30,746 nt of DNA from a virus. Shown piece after piece: positions 834 through 29,010 of this stretch. Both the position numbers and the translations under genes were made by a program. Each line of letters begins with the position of its first letter. The stretch's first letter is position 1. Under the pieces are notes generated by a model, which was not told where the DNA came from, did no database searches, and saw only the letters and a list, made by a program, of their open reading frames with translations. Location: the IMG/VR virus record IMGVR_UViG_3300023443_000128, positions 1 through 30,746 of that record, one strand, 5' to 3'.

Positions 834-872
834 GCCACCCGCTATTATCATTATTGTGGGTGGCGCTTTATT
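834..872. terminator. Hairpin terminator between convergent genes
   Basis: GCCACCC (834-840) pairs perfectly with GGGTGGC (858-864) around a 17-nt loop, followed on the plus strand by GCTTTATTATT. It sits 9 bp after the stop of the last plus-strand cassette gene and just before the stop of the convergent portal gene at 871. The T-rich tail is better on the plus strand, so it most likely ends the small cassette transcript; the same stem could slow transcription leaving the portal gene. Confidence 0.7.
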
Positions 873-2994
873 ATTGAGGTGTGACATTAGGCGACAAGCT
901 TTGAAGTGTAGCTATCTGATTACTTGCCGTCTCGCCGTCTGTCTGCCTTGTTTCAGCCATAGTCTTCAAGGTGTTAGCGTTCTTATTGCGAATACCTGCG
1001 ACTGCCTCAGCCTCTTCAATAGTCAGCTTCTGCCCTGACTGCTCGATCTTGGCCACTTCCAGGTTAAGCCTGATCGTATCATTCTGAGCCTTGGTTAATT
1101 CAGCCTGTGACTTCTTATCTTCTGCCTGTGCAAATACCATGTTCGCATCAGGTGGCTTAGGCTCATTAGCCATCTTCTCGACTTGCGCCTTTTCCTCATC
1201 GGTCATCTGCTCAACAGGAATCAGGCCAGCCTCTAGCATCTGCTTACGCTTACGCTCGGCAATCTGATCGACCAAGGGTGCATCGATAGCCTTAAGCATA
1301 ATGTCTCCGCCCTGCTGGATAATAGAGGGGTCAAGCGCTGCGTACTCAACTAGTGCAGCCAATCCAGCCTCCATCCTGTTAGTAAATGCAGGGCCGGCAT
1401 CAACCGTCACCTTGTATTTGCCTTCATTCAGGTTATTCAGCTTAACCATCTTCTGCGTTTTCTGGTCAAGCGTCTCATCGTTCAGAATGGCCATGCTTTC
1501 TGTGCCATCGATACCTACGATATTAAATTGGCGCTTAGTGTCGTATACCTCTGGAATAGCTTGAAGCAATAGGTCACACGTTCTTTGGATGCCAAAGACT
1601 AAAGCATTCACCCATTTACGAGTAGATGCGGTTCCCCGGTCAATCTGCATACGGATTGAATCTTCTGACTGTCTGCCTGCGAACTGGCCTTGCATGGCAT
1701 CAAATACACCCGCCTGCTCCTTAATGTCATTAGCCATCTGATTACCCAGATTAGCTAAGTTAGGATTGATCTGTGCCGCCCCGCTTTGTTGTGGGTATCC
1801 AGGCACCGCGTCATCAGGATTAAAGAACTGTACCGGATCAGCACTGGTGTTCATTCGAGCTAATTGCTTGATGTGACCTTTGGCCTGCTTCTTGGTCATC
1901 CAGTATTTAGGCCGTGGGGATAGTGCGCCCTCTTCAATCTCTCTGGACTTCGCGTAGTTGTGGACCCGCTGAGCGTCCATCTCCTTCAAAGTAATGCCGG
2001 AGTAAGTGACCTTTGAGCTATGGCCAGTAATTTCATAATTGCCGTAGACAGTAACAACCGGGTTGCTACGAAATACCGTAACCAGTTCGTCAGTCAGCAT
2101 GCCACCACCATCAAAGGTGCGGTGATACCAGCGAAAGCCTTTAACCGTCTTGATTCTCTCCTTGCCATCGCGCTTAGCAATGTGGATACCTTCGGCTGCT
2201 TTCTCATCCTTGATGGCCTTCCACTTGTCATCCAGCTCAACCACATCACCGTTAGTTAGCTGGGCAACTTCAATAGGGGATTCTTTCTGGTAGTAACGCT
2301 CAGCAATCGTAATCACTTCCGGCTGATAGTCATCCTCGTAATCATTGGGGATATTGTCATCGACAGAAATGCCCGAACCTTTGGGCCATTGTTCCTTATA
2401 GGAATCAGGTGATAAAGAGGTCAGCACATAAGCCACCTCACTATCTGAACTATCCGGCTCTGATGACGTATTAGCCACCCACACCCGGTTCACAGCGTTG
2501 GGAATAGCCTCAACCACTAAATCTTGCTCAAATGACCACTCGTCAAGGTACTTAGCCCGAACAATCCACGCATCAAAGCCCCTACGAATCAGGCGTCTAG
2601 CACCCTGTCGGTATAAATACTCAGTATTGGATAGGTTTTGTATAGCCCTCAACATGCCATCAAGGGTTAAGGCGGTCTCTTTGGTTGCTGATCCATCTTG
2701 AGGTTTAACATTGCCACCGAAATCCATGTCTTCAATATCAGCCATCATCGATTCAATGACGGGAGTGACCTTATCAAACGTATACCGGGGGCGCTGCTGG
2801 GAATCTAAGGCCCTGGCTATGTCATCCTCCCACTGGCCATCCTTCTCAAGCAAGAAGCGGTCAGACTCTCTCGCCTGCTCACGCTGATCCCTATCAGACT
2901 CTTGATAGTCCTTTAGTTCTTGCTGCCAATTTTTCCAAACATCATCATCATCGTTGGATTTTTTGGAATTTCGCTTCTTCTTGTCGTATGCCAT
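871..2994 (-). CDS. Portal protein, P22-like
   Basis: Forms the dodecameric portal ring at the capsid vertex through which DNA is packaged and ejected. The product is about 707 aa, close to the 725 aa of P22 gp1. The early part has the portal-type segment QWEDDIARALDSQQRPRYTF and VTPVIESMMADIEDMDFG, and mid-protein regions resemble the P22-type portal family. The C-terminal 150 residues are a long Lys/Glu/Gln-rich helical region, as in the P22 barrel, ending in a flexible tail. ATG 2994 was chosen over an upstream TTG at 3000 because AGGG lies at suitable spacing before the ATG. It follows the large terminase by 9 bp, the classic order. Confidence in the role is high. Confidence 0.93.
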   Translation of the reverse strand: MAYDKKKRNSKKSNDDDDVWKNWQQELKDYQESDRDQREQARESDRFLLEKDGQWEDDIARALDSQQRPRYTFDKVTPVIESMMADIEDMDFGGNVKPQDGSATKETALTLDGMLRAIQNLSNTEYLYRQGARRLIRRGFDAWIVRAKYLDEWSFEQDLVVEAIPNAVNRVWVANTSSEPDSSDSEVAYVLTSLSPDSYKEQWPKGSGISVDDNIPNDYEDDYQPEVITIAERYYQKESPIEVAQLTNGDVVELDDKWKAIKDEKAAEGIHIAKRDGKERIKTVKGFRWYHRTFDGGGMLTDELVTVFRSNPVVTVYGNYEITGHSSKVTYSGITLKEMDAQRVHNYAKSREIEEGALSPRPKYWMTKKQAKGHIKQLARMNTSADPVQFFNPDDAVPGYPQQSGAAQINPNLANLGNQMANDIKEQAGVFDAMQGQFAGRQSEDSIRMQIDRGTASTRKWVNALVFGIQRTCDLLLQAIPEVYDTKRQFNIVGIDGTESMAILNDETLDQKTQKMVKLNNLNEGKYKVTVDAGPAFTNRMEAGLAALVEYAALDPSIIQQGGDIMLKAIDAPLVDQIAERKRKQMLEAGLIPVEQMTDEEKAQVEKMANEPKPPDANMVFAQAEDKKSQAELTKAQNDTIRLNLEVAKIEQSGQKLTIEEAEAVAGIRNKNANTLKTMAETRQTDGETASNQIATLQSLSPNVTPQ

Positions 2995-3003
2995 CAGCAA
3001 ACC

Positions 3004-4698
3004 CTAAAATATTGACTCGAAATCAATGTCTTCAAAATCGTCATTGTTGTAGATTATACTTGCTTTATCCAAGGATACCACCGCGCTATCAAATAGGTTA
3101 GGGGAGGGTATAACGACTCTATGCCCATCAGGCATCACTACGCCCTTTCTCAGCTCATCTTTAGTATAGAACTTAATCGTATCAGCAGGCTTTAACGGTA
3201 GCTTACACGCCTCAGCCTTGAGCTTCTGGAGCATAGGGGAGGGTATGCCCTCAGAACAGAAGCTAATCAGGTCATCAGGGTCATGATACTTCTTTAAAAC
3301 CACCGCCTCATAGGTCTTATACACCCGCTCAGCAAAGCCAATAATATTCTGTGCTTTCTTGTTTGAGAATACATCCTCATTCCGGCGCTCTTCCTTCATG
3401 TTGACATTGGTATTGTCAGCCTTGAACAGCGCTTTAGGCTCATGTACTGAGGTGGAGCCCTTATACATAAAGACCTGAGTGTTATAACCCTTGAAGTTAG
3501 CTTCGGCCTGATCCCTTAACAGCGCACCCATACCGTCACCGTCATAACCGAAGGCATTAGCGCCGAACTCCTTGCACTTCCTGCTGGCTATATCGAAAGC
3601 CCGGTTAGCATTGGGAGCCTCAATCTCTTCGAAGTAGGTAAATATAACGCCCTGCCTTTCACAGTACCCATCAGCATCCTTGCCGACATCAGAAGGATCT
3701 AATGCCGCGACCTTCGCCCCTACTGGTGCCGTCTTGCCACTCTCATCAACACCAAAGCCCAGCTTCTTATGGGCATCAATGCAGGCATCGAACCACTCGC
3801 CGGTAATAACGGACGTTTCAATATCATCATTAAACGCCCCTTCCCATATGTGATTGAATCTAGCTTTGCTCATACGCCCATCAGCAGCCTTTTCTTTGTC
3901 TTTGGTAAACTCAGAGAATAGTGATTCATCGTGTATAAACCAGGGATTGTCCTGATAACCCACCTTAATGATTAAATGGTAATCATCCTCATAATACCCA
4001 TCCCTATCTAATTGGGCTTGATAAGGGACTATAAATTCTTGACTCATGGCATCGGTGGAGCTTTCGTTGTTCCATATCCACCATAATTCTGCCCCTGGCG
4101 TATCTCTTAATGTGGGGCCAAGCGTATCAATAGTGACTTGCTTGGTTCGCGCGGCCTCTTCCATCAGGAAATATTTGTAATTACTCGACCCCTTCATGTC
4201 GATAATATTAGACATGCCGCCGAACGTGAATACTCCCCCGGTCCTATGCCTGATCTCCCAGTGTGAGGGTACTGGCAAGAAGCCGGCTAAGTTTAAGTCC
4301 TTGATCGATTTGTTGATACCGGCATAAATCGACTCCTTCAATGATTTCATTCTCTCTCGGAGAACATACACCTTTGACCCGCAGCTATTAATATCACCGG
4401 CCATTACATCTTGTGCGAATCGTGACTTAGTACCGGCCCTGCCCCCAAACATGCCTTTGTGCTTCTTGTGCTTGAGTATCATAGGCTCAAGCTTTTCAAT
4501 CAGGAATATGGTTGGCTCTTCAATGGTCGGCTCCATATCGCCTATAGTCCCCTTCCATCGCCTAATGAAGTGAGGTATTAGCTCATCACCTACTTTATCA
4601 ACCCTATCCACTACGCCATAAACAGACTTCTCAAGCTTGCCTGTGCTGGCCTGCACTAAAGGCTCAAGGTAATCCAGTCGTTTAGCTAGGCTAGGCAT
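3004..4698 (-). CDS. Terminase large subunit (packaging ATPase/nuclease)
   Basis: Motor of DNA packaging: an N-terminal ATPase pumps DNA into the procapsid and a C-terminal RNase H-fold nuclease cuts the concatemer. In the 564-aa product the Walker A region is GGRAGTKS (about residues 85-92) and Walker B is FLMEEA (about 177-182), with the catalytic Glu after the hydrophobic strand. The nuclease acidic residues are in ALDPSD (about 332-337), YDGDGMG (about 385-391) and a C-terminal FDSAV. ATG 4698 overlaps the end of the small subunit by 8 bp; an upstream TTG would extend the overlap. Walker A has AGT where many terminases have GSG, a mild deviation. Next to portal and small terminase. Confidence 0.95.
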   Translation of the reverse strand: MPSLAKRLDYLEPLVQASTGKLEKSVYGVVDRVDKVGDELIPHFIRRWKGTIGDMEPTIEEPTIFLIEKLEPMILKHKKHKGMFGGRAGTKSRFAQDVMAGDINSCGSKVYVLRERMKSLKESIYAGINKSIKDLNLAGFLPVPSHWEIRHRTGGVFTFGGMSNIIDMKGSSNYKYFLMEEAARTKQVTIDTLGPTLRDTPGAELWWIWNNESSTDAMSQEFIVPYQAQLDRDGYYEDDYHLIIKVGYQDNPWFIHDESLFSEFTKDKEKAADGRMSKARFNHIWEGAFNDDIETSVITGEWFDACIDAHKKLGFGVDESGKTAPVGAKVAALDPSDVGKDADGYCERQGVIFTYFEEIEAPNANRAFDIASRKCKEFGANAFGYDGDGMGALLRDQAEANFKGYNTQVFMYKGSTSVHEPKALFKADNTNVNMKEERRNEDVFSNKKAQNIIGFAERVYKTYEAVVLKKYHDPDDLISFCSEGIPSPMLQKLKAEACKLPLKPADTIKFYTKDELRKGVVMPDGHRVVIPSPNLFDSAVVSLDKASIIYNNDDFEDIDFESIF

Positions 4699-5131
4699 GG
4701 ATACCCAATGATTCCTCAATCTTCTCGATTCTATCCTTCATCTCGGTACCCATCTCAATGTCTATCGTGTACTTAGCCGCCTGGATTAATAGCGCACCCA
4801 CATCAGGAGCGATAACACCGGATGATACCGCTTCTAGTATCGCATTAGCCTTTTGGATGGGGGTGGAGTCTTTGGGTAGGTCGAACTCAATATTGGGCAT
4901 TGTAGACTTAAGCCCTGGATAGGACTTGCTGAGTAATTCTTTTAGGAGTGTAGCGCTTTGTGGGTCTTTGGCATCAAAGGCTCTTGCGGCTATGTGGTTA
5001 ACGTATGCCTGCTCTACCTTCTCCTTTGTGTCGTTATGGCTAACACCCAGTAGCGACCCTTCTTTGATTGACTCCAGTAATAGAGTCTTAAAAGCCTTTC
5101 CGCGCTTTCTTTCATCGGGGTTAGTCTTCAT
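4691..5131 (-). CDS. Terminase small subunit (probable)
   Basis: Recognises the packaging site and hands DNA to the large subunit. The 146-aa product is mainly helical and charged; the C-terminal part (GVIAPDVGALLIQAAKYTID then EMKDRIEKIEESLG) looks like an oligomerisation helix plus coiled coil. There is no clear HTH motif by eye. The call rests largely on position, immediately upstream of and overlapping the large subunit, and on typical length. Similar proteins precede terminases in other podoviruses. A pac site would be expected in or near this gene but I could not locate it. Confidence 0.75.
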   Translation of the reverse strand: MKTNPDERKRGKAFKTLLLESIKEGSLLGVSHNDTKEKVEQAYVNHIAARAFDAKDPQSATLLKELLSKSYPGLKSTMPNIEFDLPKDSTPIQKANAILEAVSSGVIAPDVGALLIQAAKYTIDIEMGTEMKDRIEKIEESLGIHA

Positions 5132-10662: not shown

Positions 10663-11205
10663 TTAAATAGGTGAATTTTCCAGCAAAGCCAGGTCGTGAC
10701 ATTCCTGCTCATTAACCATGTTCATTTTCTCCTTGAGGCTGAATTGATTAACGACCGTCATACACTCACCCTTGAACCACTCGCCGCGCAATTTATGCTT
10801 CTTACAGAGTCGGTGCAGCTTTTTTTCTGCCGAATATGCTGGCTTACGCTCGCGGCCAATATAAAACTTCCACAGCACCCGCAATTTCTTTGGATGGCCT
10901 GTTTGCATAGAGTTGAGACGATTACCGATATTCGTACTAACTCCCAGTTTCACGCACTCCCCGTCACCAATAGCGTACAGGTGGTATTTTAAGGCCTTCT
11001 CAGGGGGTTTATCCTTGTTCCGGTAGACGAGTGACCTGACCAGAGATACTTGCTTAGGCGACCAGTACTGATTGGATAGATACCACCTCAGAAGAGAAGT
11101 AGCCATTTCTCGATCACTACAAGGTTTCGCGGTTAAAGCTTGGAGCTGAATAAGTAACTTCTCATTTCCGCCCGCTTTGTACTTCTTTTTTTTTCTTCTA
11201 GACAT
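10663..11205 (-). CDS. GIY-YIG (T5orf172/MUG113-like) nuclease-domain protein
   Basis: 180 aa. A very basic N-terminus (MSRRKKKKYKAGG) and a helical region (20-65) precede a GIY-YIG-superfamily domain at about 74-150: YHLYAIGDGECVKLGVSTNI, then GNRLNSMQTGHPKKLRVLWK, an AEKKLH segment with the candidate catalytic Glu127, and GEWFKG. This pattern is that of T5orf172-type proteins, some of which cut DNA while others are regulators. ATG 11205 has a GGGAAAGGGA site. The gene lies directly downstream of the structured RNA at 11206-11956 and is probably on the same transcript. The basic N-terminus could bind RNA or DNA; a link with that RNA is speculative. Confidence 0.75.
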   Translation of the reverse strand: MSRRKKKKYKAGGNEKLLIQLQALTAKPCSDREMATSLLRWYLSNQYWSPKQVSLVRSLVYRNKDKPPEKALKYHLYAIGDGECVKLGVSTNIGNRLNSMQTGHPKKLRVLWKFYIGRERKPAYSAEKKLHRLCKKHKLRGEWFKGECMTVVNQFSLKEKMNMVNEQECHDLALLENSPI

Positions 11206-11433
11206 AACTATGTCCCTTTCCCATAAGTAGGGTAGGCATTATCTGCCTTACCGAACCGTATGGTACTTAGGTTCCCCGTTTGATTTTCCCACAAGCAGTG
11301 GTCCCGAAATATGACGTGGATGCAAGGTTCAGCATCGCCACGATTTACCACTCCGTATTTTCTGTCTTGAGTGCCTGACCAGGTTCGTTCGCGTTTTCGT
11401 CAGTGTCGATCGTTACTGCATCTAGTGAACTGA

Positions 11434-11543
11434 CAGAGTAATTATGAAGGGGTGCTGCTATCGGGAGTCGAACCCGTGTGACTTACCAGACCCGAATTCT
11501 TACAGGCCATCACTTTTTACAACACCACCACATAATTACTCTG
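11434..11543 (-). ncRNA. Module 1: 13-bp clamp around a degenerate tRNA-like fold
   Basis: CAGAGTAATTATG (11434-11446) pairs perfectly with 11531-11543. Inside, 11451-11457 pairs with 11520-11526 (7 bp, one G-U only on the minus strand) like an acceptor stem. A T-arm-like hairpin with loop TTCGACT (minus strand) occupies 11462-11476. GTGA/TCAC (11478-11481/11510-11513) closes an apical arm containing the palindrome GAATTC. Four unpaired bases between the T-arm and the acceptor-like stem, and no convincing D-arm, make it a poor functional tRNA. Confidence 0.55.
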
Positions 11544-11553
11544 GGTAGGCGGG

Positions 11554-11728
11554 AATCTGTATTGAAGAGAGTGGGCGGGCAGGGCTCGAACCTGCGACAC
11601 ATACCGGCTAAATGAGGAATCAGGTCATGACTCCCTATCCTGTCAGAGTCCAGTACTGCTCTCCCAACTGAGCTACCGTCCAGCCCCGTTTCATGTATAG
11701 GGGCCCTCTACTCTCATCAATACAGACT
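11554..11728 (-). ncRNA. Module 2: 19-bp clamp enclosing a tRNA-like cloverleaf
   Basis: Bases 11554-11572 pair with 11710-11728: 19 positions with one A/A mismatch (11566/11716) and one pair (11555/11727) that is G-U only on the minus strand. The clamp encloses the tRNA-like sequence at 11572-11682 and an extra hairpin CCCC/GGGG (11684-11687/11700-11703). A clamp of this length around a tRNA is not a feature of ordinary tRNA precursors. Confidence 0.6.
11572..11682 (-). tRNA. tRNA-like cloverleaf with oversized anticodon arm
   Basis: Read on the minus strand: acceptor TGGACGG/CCGCCCA (11676-11682/11572-11578, one A-C mismatch), TA, D-arm GCTC-AGTTGGGA-GAGC (11658-11673) with the conserved GG, and T-arm GCAGG-TTCGAGC-CCTGC (11579-11595) directly abutting the acceptor. 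Between them GTACTGG/CCGGTAT (11650-11656/11601-11607) forms an anticodon-like stem, but instead of a 7-nt loop it carries 42 nt that fold further into GGAGTC-ATGACCT-GATTCC (11616-11634). Candidate anticodon is GAC in that apical loop, or CTG in the 5' part (GGACTCTGA) if an intron-like segment were removed. No CCA is encoded. Probably a structural mimic rather than a decoding tRNA. Confidence 0.45.
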
Positions 11729-11748
11729 CAGGAAGGCTTAAGAAGGGA

Positions 11749-11819
11749 TTGTGCGAGCCACGTTAAGAAGCGGGACTTGTGATCTTTCGATTCACTGGAC
11801 TACATTCCAACACGCACAA
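11749..11819 (-). ncRNA. Module 3: 71-nt three-arm cloverleaf
   Basis: TTGTGCG (11749-11755) pairs with CGCACAA (11813-11819). Three arms follow: CCAC/GCGG (11758-11761/11770-11773, with A/C at 11760/11771 becoming G-U on the minus strand), GTGA/TCAC (11779-11782/11792-11795) and TGGA/TCCA (11796-11799/11806-11809). The overall size and three-arm layout resemble a tRNA, but neither strand has a TTCGANNC T-loop. On the plus strand the central loop CTTTCGA would even present TTC as an anticodon, which I regard as chance. Confidence 0.5.
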
Positions 11820-11821
11820 AA

Positions 11822-11947
11822 AAGGGCCAATATCTACAGACCCTAGAGACTTGGGGCGGAGAAAGAGAACACTTGGTAGTATTTACCTTGCTCTCTAACG
11901 CCTGTAGATATTAACCCTTAATCTCTTTCTCTCAAAAGCGCTACCAA
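11822..11947 (-). ncRNA. Module 4: 11-bp stem with crossing long-range helices
   Basis: AATATCTACAG (11829-11839) pairs perfectly with 11902-11912, extended by AAGGG/CCCTT (11822-11826/11915-11919) across a 2x2 internal loop. Inside, GGTA/TACC (11875-11878/11884-11887) and AGAG/CTCT (11864-11867/11891-11894) can form. Two further helices leave the module: GAGAAAGAGA (11859-11868) with 11922-11931 (10 bp) and TTGGTAG (11873-11879) with 11941-11947 (7 bp). They cross the main stem and each other, so they are pseudoknots or alternative folds. This is the 5' end of the minus-strand RNA. Confidence 0.55.
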
Positions 11948-11962
11948 ACGCCTACATGGACA

Positions 11963-11992
11963 ATTATAAGGCAACACCTCGCATAATTACAA
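11963..11992 (-). promoter_or_regulatory. Promoter for the structured RNA (minus strand)
   Basis: TTGTAA (11992-11987) lies 18 bp before a perfect TATAAT (11968-11963). Transcription would begin near 11956 and run left through modules 4 to 1 and into the GIY-YIG gene. There is no minus-strand coding frame between this promoter and 11205, so its immediate product is RNA. Confidence 0.65.
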
Positions 11993-12041: not shown

Positions 12042-12269
12042 ATGACAACAGTTGCAGCGTTAATAGTAGCCGGTGGGCCTGGAATGTTTTGTGGCGCGAC
12101 ACTATCAGCAGATAAGACCGTCAAGATAGAGCAGCCCTGTAATTGCCTTGGGCCTCAAGTGGTCGATGGAAAGCTTGAGCCGGCCTGTCCTTGTGCTATG
12201 CGGCCCATGAGGATATTTGAGAGTAAGCGTCCATCGAATGACGGTAAAGCTCCAGACTGGGACGTATAG
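12042..12269 (+). CDS. Small Cys-rich hypothetical protein, 75 aa
   Basis: ATG 12042 follows GAGGGGGAATT, a strong ribosome site, and an extended -10 promoter. The first 25 residues (MTTVAALIVAGGPGMFCGAT) are hydrophobic and Gly-rich but lack the basic start of a signal peptide. The centre has CNC and CPC pairs (QPCNCLGPQVVDG, PACPCAMRP) that could bind a metal. It is an isolated plus-strand gene between two minus-strand blocks, transcribed divergently from the structured RNA. No family recognised. The direct repeat CGACATCG occurs twice just after the stop. Confidence 0.7.
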   Translation: MTTVAALIVAGGPGMFCGATLSADKTVKIEQPCNCLGPQVVDGKLEPACPCAMRPMRIFESKRPSNDGKAPDWDV

Positions 12270-23295: not shown

Positions 23296-23853
23296 GGCCA
23301 TTCCAATAACCACCAGCATGCCCACCACCTTGGTTACATCCCAGATTTTGCTGAATACTGAGCTCCACTTAATGTGATCGGCCAGCATATGACCCTCAGC
23401 GTAGATATTATCCATCATCAGCCTGGCCTCACGTATAAGCGCCTGCTTGCGTAGTGGCTCGGTTTCCCGCTCAGCCTGCGCCAACAGTGGGGCAATCATC
23501 GATAGTTGCTGTGGGATGGCATTAGCGACCTTGCAAGTGAAGTCTAGCGACCCAAAGGCAAAGGTTAGCCGAACCGTTCCAGAACTAGCCCCCTGAGTAC
23601 AGTAGTGCAGATTTAGATTGGCCGCATTAGCAGCAACCTCTACTTCCCTTTGGATTTGAATAATCGTATCAGCTTCGACACTAATTGGACTATCAGATTC
23701 AACAGATACACTGCTATCGCCAGCATGATTAGACTGTTGGTTATAGTCTGGTCCTTGATTCCAAGACCTGACACTAAAGTCTGGAGCTGTATTAATTCGT
23801 CCATCGCTTTCTCCTGACATCAATAGGAGGGTGATTAATACGAGGGCTTTCAC
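23290..23853 (-). CDS. Exported protein with C-terminal membrane anchor, 187 aa
   Basis: GTG 23853 overlaps the tailspike stop. Residues 1-18 (MKALVLITLLLMSGESDGRI) look like a signal peptide or signal anchor. The central region is Ser/Asp-rich then helical (PLLAQAERETEPLRKQALIR) with two cysteines (HYC, FTCK). The end has a hydrophobic helix (VTKVVGMLVVIGMAL). It lies at the end of the late operon after the tailspike, where P22-like phages often carry exclusion or lysogenic-conversion genes; that role is inferred from position only. Confidence 0.65.
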   Translation of the reverse strand: MKALVLITLLLMSGESDGRINTAPDFSVRSWNQGPDYNQQSNHAGDSSVSVESDSPISVEADTIIQIQREVEVAANAANLNLHYCTQGASSGTVRLTFAFGSLDFTCKVANAIPQQLSMIAPLLAQAERETEPLRKQALIREARLMMDNIYAEGHMLADHIKWSSVFSKIWDVTKVVGMLVVIGMAL

Positions 23854-26000
23854 ACCAAAACCCCGGTATATTCATAGCCTGCTGGGGCATCGGTGGATTT
23901 CACAATAGCAAATGTACTCGCGTTATTCTTGGTGAGAGTAGCCAATACAGCCCCGCTACTGCCTGCCTCAGTCTTCACAAAGACAAACCGATCATATCCT
24001 GCAGGTGTGTTTATGAGCCCGCCAGCGCCCCCGTCAGTATCAAAGAAGTAATCACTGCCCTCTAGCATATCCGCCACATCCACACCTTTCAGAGAGACGC
24101 CCGACCGGCTAAACCCTGAATTATCACCAATCACAAACCGCTTTAAATACGGAATGCCATCAGATGAATTGATAATGTCAGAGTTAGTGGTTTTAAAGTT
24201 ATTCCTATTCTCCTTGATATACAGCCAAAAGGTATCAGAGAATAACGGACCTTTAACAGCGTCCTCAACAATGGCCAGGGCAGAGGTGGAAAACCTGAAC
24301 AAGCGGCCGTTACCGGCAGGATACAGATTGTCAATAATAGAGATGCTGAACTCATTCATGCTCTCTTCAACGCCAGTGAATACAAAGTTAGTCACCTCTG
24401 ACGCATCGGATTTAGGTGTGACAACCGTATTCGACTCAATCACCGCATTAGCAAAAGTAGCACCGGGGAGCACCGTAATAATCACGCCGTAAATGATTGT
24501 ATTTTCCAGAATAATACTATTAGATTCAAAGATAGCGGATTGCTCAAAGTCGCCCGTGGATCTGAATTGCATCCCGCACAGAGCCGCACTGGTGCCGCCG
24601 ACAGAATAAGATAGCCGCATTTCATTGCCGCTTATCTGACAAGCTCCAGCCTGTGAATCAACGCCCCTGAAATTAGTAATCAGCTCAATACCTACGTTGC
24701 TAAAGTAATTCCCGGTCACAGAAGCATTGGCAACGATTAACTTAACCCACCGGCCTTTACAGTTAACAATCCTGTTATGGATAATGCTGGGGTTAGCTAT
24801 CTGGCGCTCAGAAGGTGAAGCATCCCAATTCGAGCCCACTATTACAATGCCATCCGCATCATCATCACCGGAAGGGCTGTCAACATTAGAAATTGAATTA
24901 CCTTCTATCTCAAGCAAGGCATTTAAATTGAATACGCTAATGCCCGATGAGGATATAACGCCTGGGTTAACTTGGACCCTGCTCACATTCTGGATAAAGT
25001 TGCCGGTAATTTTGATGATAGAAGTGGTTGCACCATCGACCCGAATACCTGATGTAGACCGCAAAGCTGCCACATTATTCACATCAAGGATCGTGTTGCC
25101 ATCAATATTTATCTTAGCAATGCGGTTGGTGTCATCGACAAATATGCCAATAGCCACCACGTTATCGCAAGACATCTCAATGCCTTCAACAGAGACCGAA
25201 TCAATAGCGTTTGCTGAATCAATATACAGGCCGTAATCAATCTCAACCGCTGAAAAATTCAAGGTAAGGGGGCCTGATATTTCTATCGATTTCGTAGGCG
25301 AGCACGTTAACTTAGCGCTGACGGTATGTGTAGAGCTTGAGTTGCGAAGGGTTCCGCCATTGGCTGCGAGGTAATTAAGCGCGGATTGAATGGCCAATGT
25401 ATCATCGCCAGAGCCTACCGCAGTGAATTGCTGCACATTCAACAGGTGCCCAGGGAATAATGCTAGAAACTCAATAGTGAGATCACCAGTAGACGCAAGC
25501 AACGAACCAAGGTCATAAGGCCCGCCCGTCACCGCTTGAACGAGAAATATATTGCCACCACCATCACCATCAGTAAGGCGCCCGGTAGTCTGCACATAAT
25601 CGCCAATAGAATAGGTGGTGGTTTCGGCTATCATTTTGTCAGTAGTGACTAACGGTAGTCCAGCATCACCATCGACAAGGGGCTGGCCATTAAATGCATT
25701 CTCGATGTAGTAAACCTGACTACCTGCCTGGTTTAATACCTTGAGCGAATAATTGCCCTCGACAAGTATCTGAACAGGGGAGCCTTCGAAAATAGGTACA
25801 CCACCCGCACCCGTAACGGCAGGCTGCATAACAGGGACTTCTGTGCCATCTTCTTGACGCAGTGTAATCTGCTTTTGATTGCCGGGGATTTCTGGATCAG
25901 TATCTGGAATTCCTACAAATATTTGACCAAAGAATACAGGCCGGCCCTTGGTGGGGTCGGGGTAATATTCAATACCCAATTCAACTAGATTTAATGCCAT
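23850..26000 (-). CDS. Tailspike with P22-like head-binding domain and beta-helix
   Basis: 716 aa. Residues 1-110 resemble the P22 tailspike head-binding domain: PDPTKGRPVFFGQIFVGIPD, IPGNQKQITLRQEDGTEVPV, then PIFEGSPVQILVEGNYSLKV, with YYIENAFNGQPL closing the domain. From about 120 to 600 the repeated G-N-x-I and strand-turn rungs (ITGNFIQNVSRVQV, IEGNSISNVDSP, VTGNYFSNVGIEL) show a right-handed parallel beta-helix, typical of enzymes that cut or deacetylate host polysaccharide. A C-terminal beta module follows. Catalytic residues cannot be placed from sequence alone. ATG 26000 has AGGG upstream. It is the main candidate for host-receptor specificity. Confidence 0.88.
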   Translation of the reverse strand: MALNLVELGIEYYPDPTKGRPVFFGQIFVGIPDTDPEIPGNQKQITLRQEDGTEVPVMQPAVTGAGGVPIFEGSPVQILVEGNYSLKVLNQAGSQVYYIENAFNGQPLVDGDAGLPLVTTDKMIAETTTYSIGDYVQTTGRLTDGDGGGNIFLVQAVTGGPYDLGSLLASTGDLTIEFLALFPGHLLNVQQFTAVGSGDDTLAIQSALNYLAANGGTLRNSSSTHTVSAKLTCSPTKSIEISGPLTLNFSAVEIDYGLYIDSANAIDSVSVEGIEMSCDNVVAIGIFVDDTNRIAKINIDGNTILDVNNVAALRSTSGIRVDGATTSIIKITGNFIQNVSRVQVNPGVISSSGISVFNLNALLEIEGNSISNVDSPSGDDDADGIVIVGSNWDASPSERQIANPSIIHNRIVNCKGRWVKLIVANASVTGNYFSNVGIELITNFRGVDSQAGACQISGNEMRLSYSVGGTSAALCGMQFRSTGDFEQSAIFESNSIILENTIIYGVIITVLPGATFANAVIESNTVVTPKSDASEVTNFVFTGVEESMNEFSISIIDNLYPAGNGRLFRFSTSALAIVEDAVKGPLFSDTFWLYIKENRNNFKTTNSDIINSSDGIPYLKRFVIGDNSGFSRSGVSLKGVDVADMLEGSDYFFDTDGGAGGLINTPAGYDRFVFVKTEAGSSGAVLATLTKNNASTFAIVKSTDAPAGYEYTGVLV

Positions 26001-26032
26001 GGTAATACCCTATTTTGATTTTGGTTTTTGGG

Positions 26033-27859
26033 TTATTGATCTTTCAGTAATTCGCGCATTGCCTTGAATTTCTTTTTGTCATCCAACTGCTTTTTCTTGA
26101 GCAGGCCAATAGCTTTTTTTCCTATCGCTACGCCACCCTGTATTCCGCCTCCTGCAATATCAGCCGCCGCCGATGCTGCGCCTTGCTTTGATTGCCCTGC
26201 GAAGCCTGTGCCTCTTGACGGGCCCCAGATGTCATCTAGCTGATTAGCAAAATGTACTTGCTGGGTAAGATCATCTTTAAGTTTATAGCCGTTATCTACA
26301 GCTATCGAGTCCAAATCTTTAATGGCCGTCATTATCTCATCTCTTGAGATTCTTTGGCTCATTATCGCCCTAGACATACGGCCTAAATTAGCATCAGTAA
26401 ACTCGCCATTTAAATCAACCTTGCCCGCACCCTTTTGGATGCGGTTCATAACATCGACAGTCTTTGAATATTCAGCATTAGCCCTGCCATACTCAGGAAA
26501 TTGATTTTCTAAAAACTCTTTAGTTGATAGCCGGAAGTCAGATAGTAACCCCTGTGTTTTTGCATCAAGCCCTGTGACGGTTTTACCGTAAGCAATATCC
26601 TCATCAATTCTACGCTTGAGATTATGAACGTCTTTGGCTGTCACCCTCTTTACACCAAACGCTTCAATCTCATCGAAAAGATCATTAATGACTTTCTGGC
26701 CTTTCTTGTTTAAATTCAAGTCACCGAAATCAATGCCGCCATTGACATCCATATCAAGGTTAATGCCTTTCTCTCCCCACATCTCAGCCACTCTATCCAT
26801 CAAAGGTATGGTATTGACCTCAATATTGGCGAGATTGTTATTAACGTACTTATCAATATTTCTACCGGCTTGCTTGTTGGTGTCCTTAACAATTTTAAGC
26901 CTGTCACCTAATGACTTGCCGGTAACAATTGACGGATCATTGGTAACAGATGATTCTGGTATCTCAAAAAGCCGCTCTCTTGAGCTTATCATCTGGTTAA
27001 GTTTGGCTTTTGTATCTGGATTGACCCTTTCAGTAAGCCCCAATATTGCATCACTAAAACCCGCCTCTTGGGCTATCTTATGCCGAGGGTTATCAATCAC
27101 TTTGCCATGCCTATTTAACTTATAAGGGGCTGTAGTGGTGGTGTACCCCGACAATCCTAAATCATCAGGATCAGCCTGGGGCGGCTTGACGGCCCATGGG
27201 TCAGCATCGACAGGAACCAAGTCTGTACTTTCCGCAGGAATATAGTCACCCTCAACCGCTTGGCGTTCTAATTGCTGTGCTATTGCTCTTTTTTCGGGAG
27301 AAGCCACCTTTTGAGCCGTAGCGGAAGCCCTACCAATAGCCGAAGGAGCCTTAAGAGCACCACCGCCTTCAAGAACAGTAGGCACAGCGCCAGTAGCGGC
27401 GGCAAGAATTGGAGCGCCCAACTGAGATACATCGGCCAGTGTATCAAATCCTTTCTCCCTTAATCGTGTAGAGGTATCCATGCTGCGCTGAAACATTTCT
27501 TCCGGCGCGCCTTGGGCTTCGGTAATCAATTGCTTAACGCTATCAGGCACATAATCTTGATAGGCTTTTGATATTAGCTGTGCGACCTGCTGGCCTTTCT
27601 CGCCTACCTCGTAATCAGGTATCGATTCTTTGATGGCTTCTGAAATAGCTACGGACTGTGGAATATCGCGACCTGCAATCATCCCGCCAGCACCCGCCAG
27701 AAAGTCCTCTGCGCCCTGTGCTACTCCAGACCCTATAATGTCAGCAGTGCCGGTTATAGCGTCCATAGCGCTCATTGATGGCTGCTCAGCCTCACCGTCA
27801 AACTGGTCAAAAGTATTCTGCTCAGCCTGCTCATCAAATTGGTCGAATGCATTAGCCAT
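26033..27859 (-). CDS. Ejection/internal virion protein (gp16-position), 608 aa
   Basis: Length (608) and place, last of three genes before the tailspike, match P22 gp16, which is injected with the DNA. The first 26 residues hold a tandem repeat, FDQFDEQAEQ then FDQFDGEAEQ, a feature of internal virion proteins. A Gly/Ala-rich segment (about 30-65) and possible membrane-active stretch (AQLGAPILAAATGAV type) follow, then long helices and a C-terminal Lys-rich tail. ATG 27859 overlaps the previous stop (TAATG). No lytic transglycosylase motif was seen. Role assigned from synteny and architecture. Confidence 0.7.
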   Translation of the reverse strand: MANAFDQFDEQAEQNTFDQFDGEAEQPSMSAMDAITGTADIIGSGVAQGAEDFLAGAGGMIAGRDIPQSVAISEAIKESIPDYEVGEKGQQVAQLISKAYQDYVPDSVKQLITEAQGAPEEMFQRSMDTSTRLREKGFDTLADVSQLGAPILAAATGAVPTVLEGGGALKAPSAIGRASATAQKVASPEKRAIAQQLERQAVEGDYIPAESTDLVPVDADPWAVKPPQADPDDLGLSGYTTTTAPYKLNRHGKVIDNPRHKIAQEAGFSDAILGLTERVNPDTKAKLNQMISSRERLFEIPESSVTNDPSIVTGKSLGDRLKIVKDTNKQAGRNIDKYVNNNLANIEVNTIPLMDRVAEMWGEKGINLDMDVNGGIDFGDLNLNKKGQKVINDLFDEIEAFGVKRVTAKDVHNLKRRIDEDIAYGKTVTGLDAKTQGLLSDFRLSTKEFLENQFPEYGRANAEYSKTVDVMNRIQKGAGKVDLNGEFTDANLGRMSRAIMSQRISRDEIMTAIKDLDSIAVDNGYKLKDDLTQQVHFANQLDDIWGPSRGTGFAGQSKQGAASAAADIAGGGIQGGVAIGKKAIGLLKKKQLDDKKKFKAMRELLKDQ

Positions 27860-29010
27860 TATAAGCCCTCTGGCAAGTAACCGTATTTAGCTTTGAACTC
27901 TTCCGCCATGCCAGGGTTGGCCATCAGCATATCAATAGCAGCCTGTGGAGGCGTAGCAGGTGGAGCGCTAACCTCAAACTTACCGGGTATTCTTGCCCGC
28001 ATGTTGTTGAGCTGCTTGCCTGTAAGATTGTCAGATATGACATCTGTATACTTTCCAACTGAATCGCCGGCTGAATCGATTGATGAGTTTGCCAGCACCT
28101 TGGCAGTATTGACTATCTGAGCAAAGCCCTCTTTAGATAATCCACCCTCTCCAATCATTCTGTTGTACATATTGGCCATGCCTTTAGCTGCACCCTCAAC
28201 CCCCTCAACCATTCCAACCTCGTTTTCTCTTACGGCAGATGTAGGGTCTAACGCCTTCATAAACTTAAAGATTGCGGCAATCATGGACGCGGGTGATGAG
28301 TTTTCTGATAGCGCCTCAAGGTCAGCAGCTGCACCGCGAATACCGACAGACTCTTTGACTAGCCCTGTCACTTTGTCGTTAATGCCTGACACATCTTTGG
28401 CGTTTAGCATATCTTTTCCGGCCAACCTTCCGGCATCACTCGCCAGAAAATCCTGATAATTAGGATCAAGGGTAAATGCGCCCGTGCTTTCGTTAAAGTT
28501 CCAGCCTCCCATTCCTTTTGCTGTGGCTTGGGTAAACTTAGGCTTAGTTTTCTGTAATGACTCATGCTCTTTGCCGAACTGAGCAGCCATAGCCATATCA
28601 GTGCGCTTAACAATTTCATCATCATCCAGCTCTAAGAGCTTGAGCATGTCGGAAGGGTCGCCGCCAAGCCTGCGAATTTCATCAGCCGTATTATTAATTT
28701 CTTGCCTTACATCGCCTGTGCCGGAGAGAATATTTGTCATCCCCTTAAGCCGAGCCCCTTTGGTTTGCTCGTTACGATGCCCCGCCTCTTTATTGATACG
28801 TTCGCCCATTTCAGGGTTGGCAATAGAGAAAGCCGCCATTTCCTGCGGGGTGCCTGATTGCATGATTCGTTGAGCCTCGCCGACTAAGGCTTGCTCTTGC
28901 TGCTGCCGGGCAACGGCTTGCTCACCTTCCCGGTTGGCTTGAATCCCGCCGTAAATACCTTGCAGGCCCTGAGTGAAGTCGGCAGGTTGTACATAAAATT
29001 GATTTTGCAT
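27859..29010 (-). CDS. Ejection/internal virion protein (gp20-position), 383 aa
   Basis: Begins MQNQFYVQPADFTQGLQGIY; residues 15-130 are a Gln/Glu-rich helical region (EGEQAVARQQQEQALVGEAQ), and the rest is helical with Ala-rich stretches, ending PGMAEEFKAKYGYLPEG. It lies between the other two ejection-type proteins, as gp20 does in P22 (471 aa there). No enzymatic motif. It is expected to leave the virion with the DNA and help span the envelope; inferred from position. Confidence 0.65.
   Translation of the reverse strand: MQNQFYVQPADFTQGLQGIYGGIQANREGEQAVARQQQEQALVGEAQRIMQSGTPQEMAAFSIANPEMGERINKEAGHRNEQTKGARLKGMTNILSGTGDVRQEINNTADEIRRLGGDPSDMLKLLELDDDEIVKRTDMAMAAQFGKEHESLQKTKPKFTQATAKGMGGWNFNESTGAFTLDPNYQDFLASDAGRLAGKDMLNAKDVSGINDKVTGLVKESVGIRGAAADLEALSENSSPASMIAAIFKFMKALDPTSAVRENEVGMVEGVEGAAKGMANMYNRMIGEGGLSKEGFAQIVNTAKVLANSSIDSAGDSVGKYTDVISDNLTGKQLNNMRARIPGKFEVSAPPATPPQAAIDMLMANPGMAEEFKAKYGYLPEGL

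Follow-up and report, generated by a model that had tools for sequence, protein, structure and literature searches.

Proteins of the IscB/HEARO systems use structured RNA located in front of their own ORF. To our knowledge, very few classes of large structured phage RNA have been described, and no function is assigned to the well-known ones. GOLLD and ROOL are phage RNAs found near tRNA islands, and GOLLD carries tRNAs in a linker and has a conserved 3' region (PMC12286853). An abundant non-coding RNA of approximately 800 nt is present in Vibrio phage ICP1 (PMC7567579), and T5orf172, a GIY-YIG superfamily domain, is found in most putative homing endonucleases of the same phage (PMC9040626).

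The sequence analysed here (the window) is a 30.7-kb IMG/VR record (30,746 nt). It derives from a P22-like phage whose terminase shares 67% identity with those of Vibrio lentus phages, and head and injection genes of P22 type (portal, terminase, head-binding tailspike and injectosome protein) are located at 871-5131 and 23850-29010. An earlier note had assigned the segment 11206-11956 to a giant RNA of probable GOLLD/ROOL class. This identity was not borne out, as neither Rfam 15 covariance model was matched at E-values up to 10 (window), up to 1 (six relatives) or up to 5 (four more). The Rfam scans likewise gave no HEARO, riboswitch or intron match, with no group I or group II intron family in cmscan, and interpretation of the 3' motif as a group I intron was rejected (no P7-like core, no Rfam match). 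Searches of phages and plasmids with the whole region using blastn gave short tRNA matches only. The RNA is a family absent from the catalogues and coupled to a homing-type nuclease; it is GOLLD/ROOL-like in style and HEARO-like in arrangement, and belongs to neither.

Like GOLLD, the RNA is phage-borne, several hundred nt long and pseudoknotted, sometimes with tRNAs within and with a better conserved 3' part; unlike GOLLD, it is always followed by a GIY-YIG ORF, ranges from 359 to 751 nt among members (751 nt in the window), lacks covariance-model similarity and has a core consisting of another pseudoknot and a 9-bp hairpin. ROOL is also a large phage RNA with pseudoknots and tRNA association, whereas the present RNA shows no similarity to its model, is ORF-linked and in many members has no nearby tRNA. 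The HEARO RNA (IscB omega RNA) resembles it in being structured, lying right in front of a small nuclease ORF and moving with it as one unit. Such an RNA immediately precedes the nuclease ORF in every copy here, but this ORF encodes a MUG113/T5orf172 GIY-YIG protein, not an IscB-like HNH/RuvC protein, and neither an Rfam match nor a guide or target was identified. Free-standing T5orf172 (GIY-YIG) homing endonucleases, for example those of ICP1, share the superfamily, the domain and a presumed mobility, whereas the present unit includes a long conserved structured RNA. The ICP1 non-coding RNA is comparable as an RNA of approximately 800 nt in a Vibrio phage, but adjoins the lysis cluster, a different neighbourhood, and the covariance model R1 (3' hairpin only, see below) had no match in ICP1.

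Strand, repeats and promoter

From its sequence features, the large folded RNA is the minus strand, running from approximately 11956 down to 11206 and reading into the GIY-YIG gene, opposite to the strand previously assumed. Folding exceeded chance on both strands (z −6.7 for minus, −4.3 for plus; 20 shuffles each), and the same strand out-folded its complement in 12/12 members tested. All four inverted repeats listed in the earlier note were present where it had placed them: a 13-bp repeat (11434-11446/11531-11543), a 20-nt repeat of 90% complementarity (11553-11572/11710-11729, given earlier as 19 positions, 11554-11572/11710-11728), a 7-bp repeat (11749-11755/11813-11819) and an 11-bp repeat (11829-11839/11902-11912) that is part of a 28-nt arm pair of 82% complementarity (11822-11849/11892-11919). 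The segment was also gene-free as claimed, with no ORF of at least 50 aa in the six frames of 11206-11956. An outer helix from the minimum-energy fold (11949-11955/11545-11551) overlaps the stem of hairpin P1 (see below), was unconfirmed in relatives and was discarded.

The promoter-like TTGTAA-18-TATAAT proposed earlier exists at 11963-11992 (boxes 11992-11987 and 11968-11963), corrected to the minus strand, reading down towards 11206 from approximately 10 nt ahead of P1. The promoter scan by itself was at chance level (2 sites found, 1.4 expected); most relatives have a TATAAT-like box shortly before P1. A small ORF with a Cys-rich middle (12042-12269, plus) diverges from this promoter; it matched no PHROGs or NCBIfam family and had no tblastn counterpart in phages.

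Identification of relatives

A single annotated phage, Vibrio phage 1.110.O (L084), was obtained by tblastn with the GIY-YIG protein, and its leader and that of the window have a common hairpin kept through compensatory changes. Exact-pattern hairpin scans of 2.9 million viral contigs gave L086, L087 and L088, and the pattern with stem positions left free gave L101, L103, L104 and L105, in which the stems were complementary although the pattern made no such demand. The free-stem pattern also gave two chance matches in coding sequence, and two chance pattern matches on genome contigs (L109, L110) were set aside. Protein profiles gave L089, L090, L091 and L093, followed by L126 and L127. The final set comprised 15 loci (the window, 1.110.O and 13 IMG/VR contigs), clustering into approximately nine independent lineages, and strong folding was found in most members.

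Hairpin and ORF were found in the same order in 15/15 loci. The gene was present in all seven loci found by RNA motif alone (L086, L087, L088, L101, L103, L104 and L105), and L126 and L127, found by protein only and excluded from R1, which spans the 3' hairpin only, matched this model with 67.4 and 71.3 bits just ahead of the ORF. R1 had no match in the remote GIY-YIG loci L096-L100 or in approximately 30 phage records with related terminases, many of which are fragments. A terminase scan (80 contigs) yielded no second copy of the unit, single-protein scans using neighbouring genes found nothing, and the search for host or prophage copies was shallow, its scan of 369 genomes from the class to which L109 belongs, run with no positive control, giving no match. 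Two further structured elements were seen on contigs of members, an abiF RNA in L093 (148-210, minus; RF03085, 37.5 bits, just above the gathering score) and a second long terminator-like stretch in L087 (approximately 2960-3180, minus), just ahead of an antirepressor-type gene.

The 5' pseudoknot domain

A 5' domain was found in 12 members; by inspection, L087 and L103 have no recognisable copy and consist of the 3' part only. Coordinates below are for the minus strand of the window. The domain starts with hairpin P1 (11936-11953; stem AGGCG/CGCTT, 8-nt loop TTTGGTAG), of which an equivalent stem is found in 12 members. The P1 loop constitutes strand a (11941-11948) and forms a pseudoknot with strand a' (CTACCAAG, 11872-11879). 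Strand b (GAGAAAGAGA, 11922-11931) pairs with b' (TCTCTTTCTC, 11859-11868), and strand c (AAGGGTTAATATCTACAG, 11902-11919) with 11822-11839 in c', which together with the U-run after it (CTGTAGATATTGGCCCTT, 11816-11839) makes a terminator-like end; since the strands follow one another as a b c a' b' c', the pairs cross. A run of 6-8 T (U) closes the domain in 12/12 members having it, and a terminator scan limited to loops of 3-8 nt reported no terminator. Among members the P1 loop is 8-10 nt long and pairs with the distal strand in many distinct sequences, including, besides that of the window, TGTGGAAG, AGGTGAGATG, TTTAGTAG, TTTGCCAGAG, CGTGGATT, TGTGAAGAG and others.

The register was set by eye and afterwards tested by permuting partners among members, which is the proper control because the c5 strands and P1 loops were hand-chosen. 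Helix a scored 197.5 with its own loop versus 141.8 (sd 9.4) permuted (11 members), helix b 226 versus 156.5 (sd 10.8) and helix c 325.5 versus 153.3 (sd 20.4), each with 0/50000 permutations. With the register fixed, paired cells were 47/48 (P1), 72/72 (a), 65/65 (b) and 95/96 (c), with two-sided changes at 3, 6, 6 and 6 pairs, respectively. The strand that pairs with the P1 loop was found at two places with the pairing kept, before b' (window, L086, L088, L091 and L093) or instead inside hairpin d, a small CCC...GGG hairpin (L084, L089, L090, L104 and L105), which looks like a switch in pseudoknot topology inside a single family.

The 3' hairpin and translation start

The conserved 3' hairpin (CGTGGCGATGCTGAACCTTGCATCCACG, 11315-11342, minus), defined by covariation and model R1, has 9 pairs, with 117/117 cells paired in 13 sequences, two-sided changes at 4 pairs, no slid version close to it and a largely fixed loop sequence. 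It is located approximately 100-140 nt ahead of the start codon in every member, and L087 and L103, having the 3' part only, reveal which portion is linked to the gene. The start codon follows a purine tract resembling a ribosome-binding site (GGGAAAGGG, 11203-11222, minus, start codon included), and GAAAGG or GAAAAGG ahead of the ATG is conserved in relatives. Pairing of CCUU in the hairpin loop with AAGG of the ribosome-binding site was considered and dropped as inconsistent, being present in some members and unclear in L090, L101 and L104.

Covarying helices in homologous regions, suggested earlier as a check, were found in the 3' hairpin as well as in P1 and helices a-c, with many two-sided changes. 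The reading of the segment as a large, conserved and covarying RNA stood; the earlier note had overlooked the strand of the RNA, its pseudoknots and conserved 3' hairpin, and the GIY-YIG gene linked to it.

Mobility and proposed role of the RNA

Within 3.5 kb, the GIY-YIG protein was the only ORF common to all members, and the few other neighbours that matched did so in pairs; as flanking genes are mostly unrelated, the unit looks mobile. A 1.1-kb block, extending from just before the promoter to approximately 70 nt past the ORF, is 87% identical between L093 and L127, whereas their downstream neighbour proteins are only about 41% identical; approximately 160 nt of 3' RNA are nearly identical and the ORF is more diverged. 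This block, together with related-terminase records that have no unit, fits a mobile cassette; neither an empty site nor a target site was found. Comparison of the loci shows a minus-strand RNA conserved by structure, its 5' pseudoknot domain ending in a U-run, and RNA and gene always together while neighbours change. As judged from sequence, RNA and nuclease appear to travel between phages as a single unit.

We propose, with roughly even confidence for and against, that this is a mobile phage cassette in which the RNA serves as an extended structured leader for a homing-type nuclease gene. The cassette, approximately 0.8-1.4 kb, would comprise the promoter, 0.36-0.75 kb of structured RNA and the GIY-YIG gene, most simply as one transcript. 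Acting as a homing endonuclease, the nuclease would propagate the cassette. The 5' pseudoknot may compete with or modulate termination at the U-run, so that a short RNA is released or transcription reads through, and the 3' hairpin, located ahead of the ribosome-binding site, could tune translation or bind the protein. The proposal is based on covariation in the 3' hairpin and the permutation tests on a, b and c, on the presence of the gene in all RNA-first finds and of R1 matches in the protein-only finds L126 and L127, and on the L093/L127 block, in which identity outruns that of the neighbours. The register-fixed pair counts, the lack of R1 matches in remote GIY-YIG loci and related-terminase records, the MUG113 and T5orf172 matches of all 13 aligned proteins and the T5orf172 domains of putative ICP1 homing endonucleases (PMC9040626) also count in its favour. 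The 5' domain is apparently not needed for the unit, since L087 and L103 lack a recognisable copy. Counting against the proposal are the unusual length of a 0.4-0.75 kb leader, a promoter that does not stand out in the scan, the negative terminator scan (loops of 3-8 nt), the inconsistent pairing of the hairpin loop with the ribosome-binding site and the clustering of relatives into approximately nine lineages.

The chief alternative would be a large ornate RNA of GOLLD/ROOL-like kind that acts in trans (an RNA-only particle or scaffold, sometimes with tRNAs), beside which a homing endonuclease settled and which it now spreads. The 751-nt size in the window, the pseudoknots, the optional internal tRNAs and the strong fold in most members agree with this, as do the precedents of GOLLD/ROOL near tRNA islands (PMC12286853) and of the abundant ICP1 RNA of approximately 800 nt (PMC7567579). 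We consider it possible, but rather unlikely: the RNA has no Rfam similarity, varies from 359 to 751 nt with only the 3' part in L087 and L103, and has no R1 (3' hairpin only) counterpart in ICP1, and the position of the hairpin ahead of the ORF in every member points to cis linkage.

The GIY-YIG nuclease gene

Directly downstream of the RNA, a nuclease-like ORF of 180 aa (10663-11205, minus) matched the Pfam families MUG113 (37.0 bits, cut-off 22.3) and T5orf172 (26.4 bits, cut-off 20), as did 13/13 aligned proteins (E ≤ 0.001). Protein length among members was 156-234 aa, and invariant residues include Y77, G88, R96, E127 and the GEW motif. The N-terminus is basic, and three N-terminal helices precede the GIY-YIG fold in an AF2 model (mean pLDDT 81, pTM 0.56); a structure search with this model gave nothing usable, and a PDB profile search gave short spurious matches only.

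Protein and RNA might instead form one mobile RNP nuclease with no relationship to IscB, TnpB or Cas, the RNA guiding, scaffolding or activating DNA cleavage. Such a system could account for the strict co-occurrence (15/15 loci), for an RNA preceding a small nuclease ORF with a basic N-terminus and three N-terminal helices, and for the near-identical 3' RNA beside a more diverged ORF in L093 and L127. However, no guide segment or target was identified, a literature search found no RNA-guided GIY-YIG system, and ordinary GIY-YIG homing enzymes rely on protein to recognise DNA, so that we regard this as improbable. It is more doubtful still that the 3' element acts as DNA, as an operator or homing site with a nuclease-bound inverted repeat: this would suit its small size, strong conservation and constant position next to the gene, but its stem letters vary in concert where arms bound by a protein ought to stay constant, its loop is conserved and the whole upstream strand folds.

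Variable middle and tRNA content

Between the U-run and the 3' part, the PB module of the window (11749-11819, minus) has a TTGTGCG/CGCACAA helix and a loosely tRNA-like interior with no Rfam tRNA match. Helix PB follows the U-run in L086, L088 and L105 (TTGTGTCTG/CAGRCACAA), succeeded by a pyrimidine-rich CCTTTC-type stretch, and a complete canonical tRNA-Gly(TCC) is found in place of PB in L104. Comparison of L104 and L105, in which an arm is replaced by a complete tRNA, shows at sequence level how tRNAs join larger RNAs. PC and PD are additional modules in the window. PC (11553-11729, minus) has 20-nt arms of 90% complementarity around tRNA-like fold C (11571-11682, minus; 112 nt), with acceptor, D and T arms and a greatly extended anticodon arm with a 48-nt interior; fold C is the sole Rfam match in the window (RF00005, 35.7 bits). 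PC-like arms (GTCTGTAT...ATACAGAT) surround non-tRNA sequence in L090 and L091. PD (11434-11543, minus) has perfect 13-bp arms around a relic with T-arm CGGGTTCGACTCCCG and no Rfam tRNA match.

ARAGORN found no tRNA in the window and none in 12 of the 14 relatives; 1.110.O has a tRNA-Met. The earlier description of tRNA-like folds inside the RNA is upheld by the one fold recognised by Rfam and was overstated otherwise. A tRNA inside or adjacent, as in GOLLD, is a trait of some members only (L104, L084 and, as tRNA-like sequence, the window) and is not diagnostic. Comparison of the members shows tRNAs or tRNA-like folds occupying replaceable arms, and since only some members have them in the variable middle, they are optional inserts, which may be captured passengers or folding/processing modules. 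A degenerate phage tRNA array, with the repeats as tRNA stems and flanks, could explain fold C, the PD relic and the canonical tRNAs of L104 and 1.110.O, but is most improbable and as a full explanation is contradicted by members that have no tRNAs, in which conserved helices outside the tRNA-like parts still covary, and the window itself has no canonical tRNA gene.

The constant protein partner and the availability of one member in culture (Vibrio phage 1.110.O, host Vibrio breoganii) make expression, structure and function directly testable. Vibrio phage 1.275.O (L003) was set aside from the family as it had no R1 match; its folded intergenic region at 32816-33150 (z −4.9), with a tRNA-Gly between other strong hairpins, is possibly another structured phage RNA.
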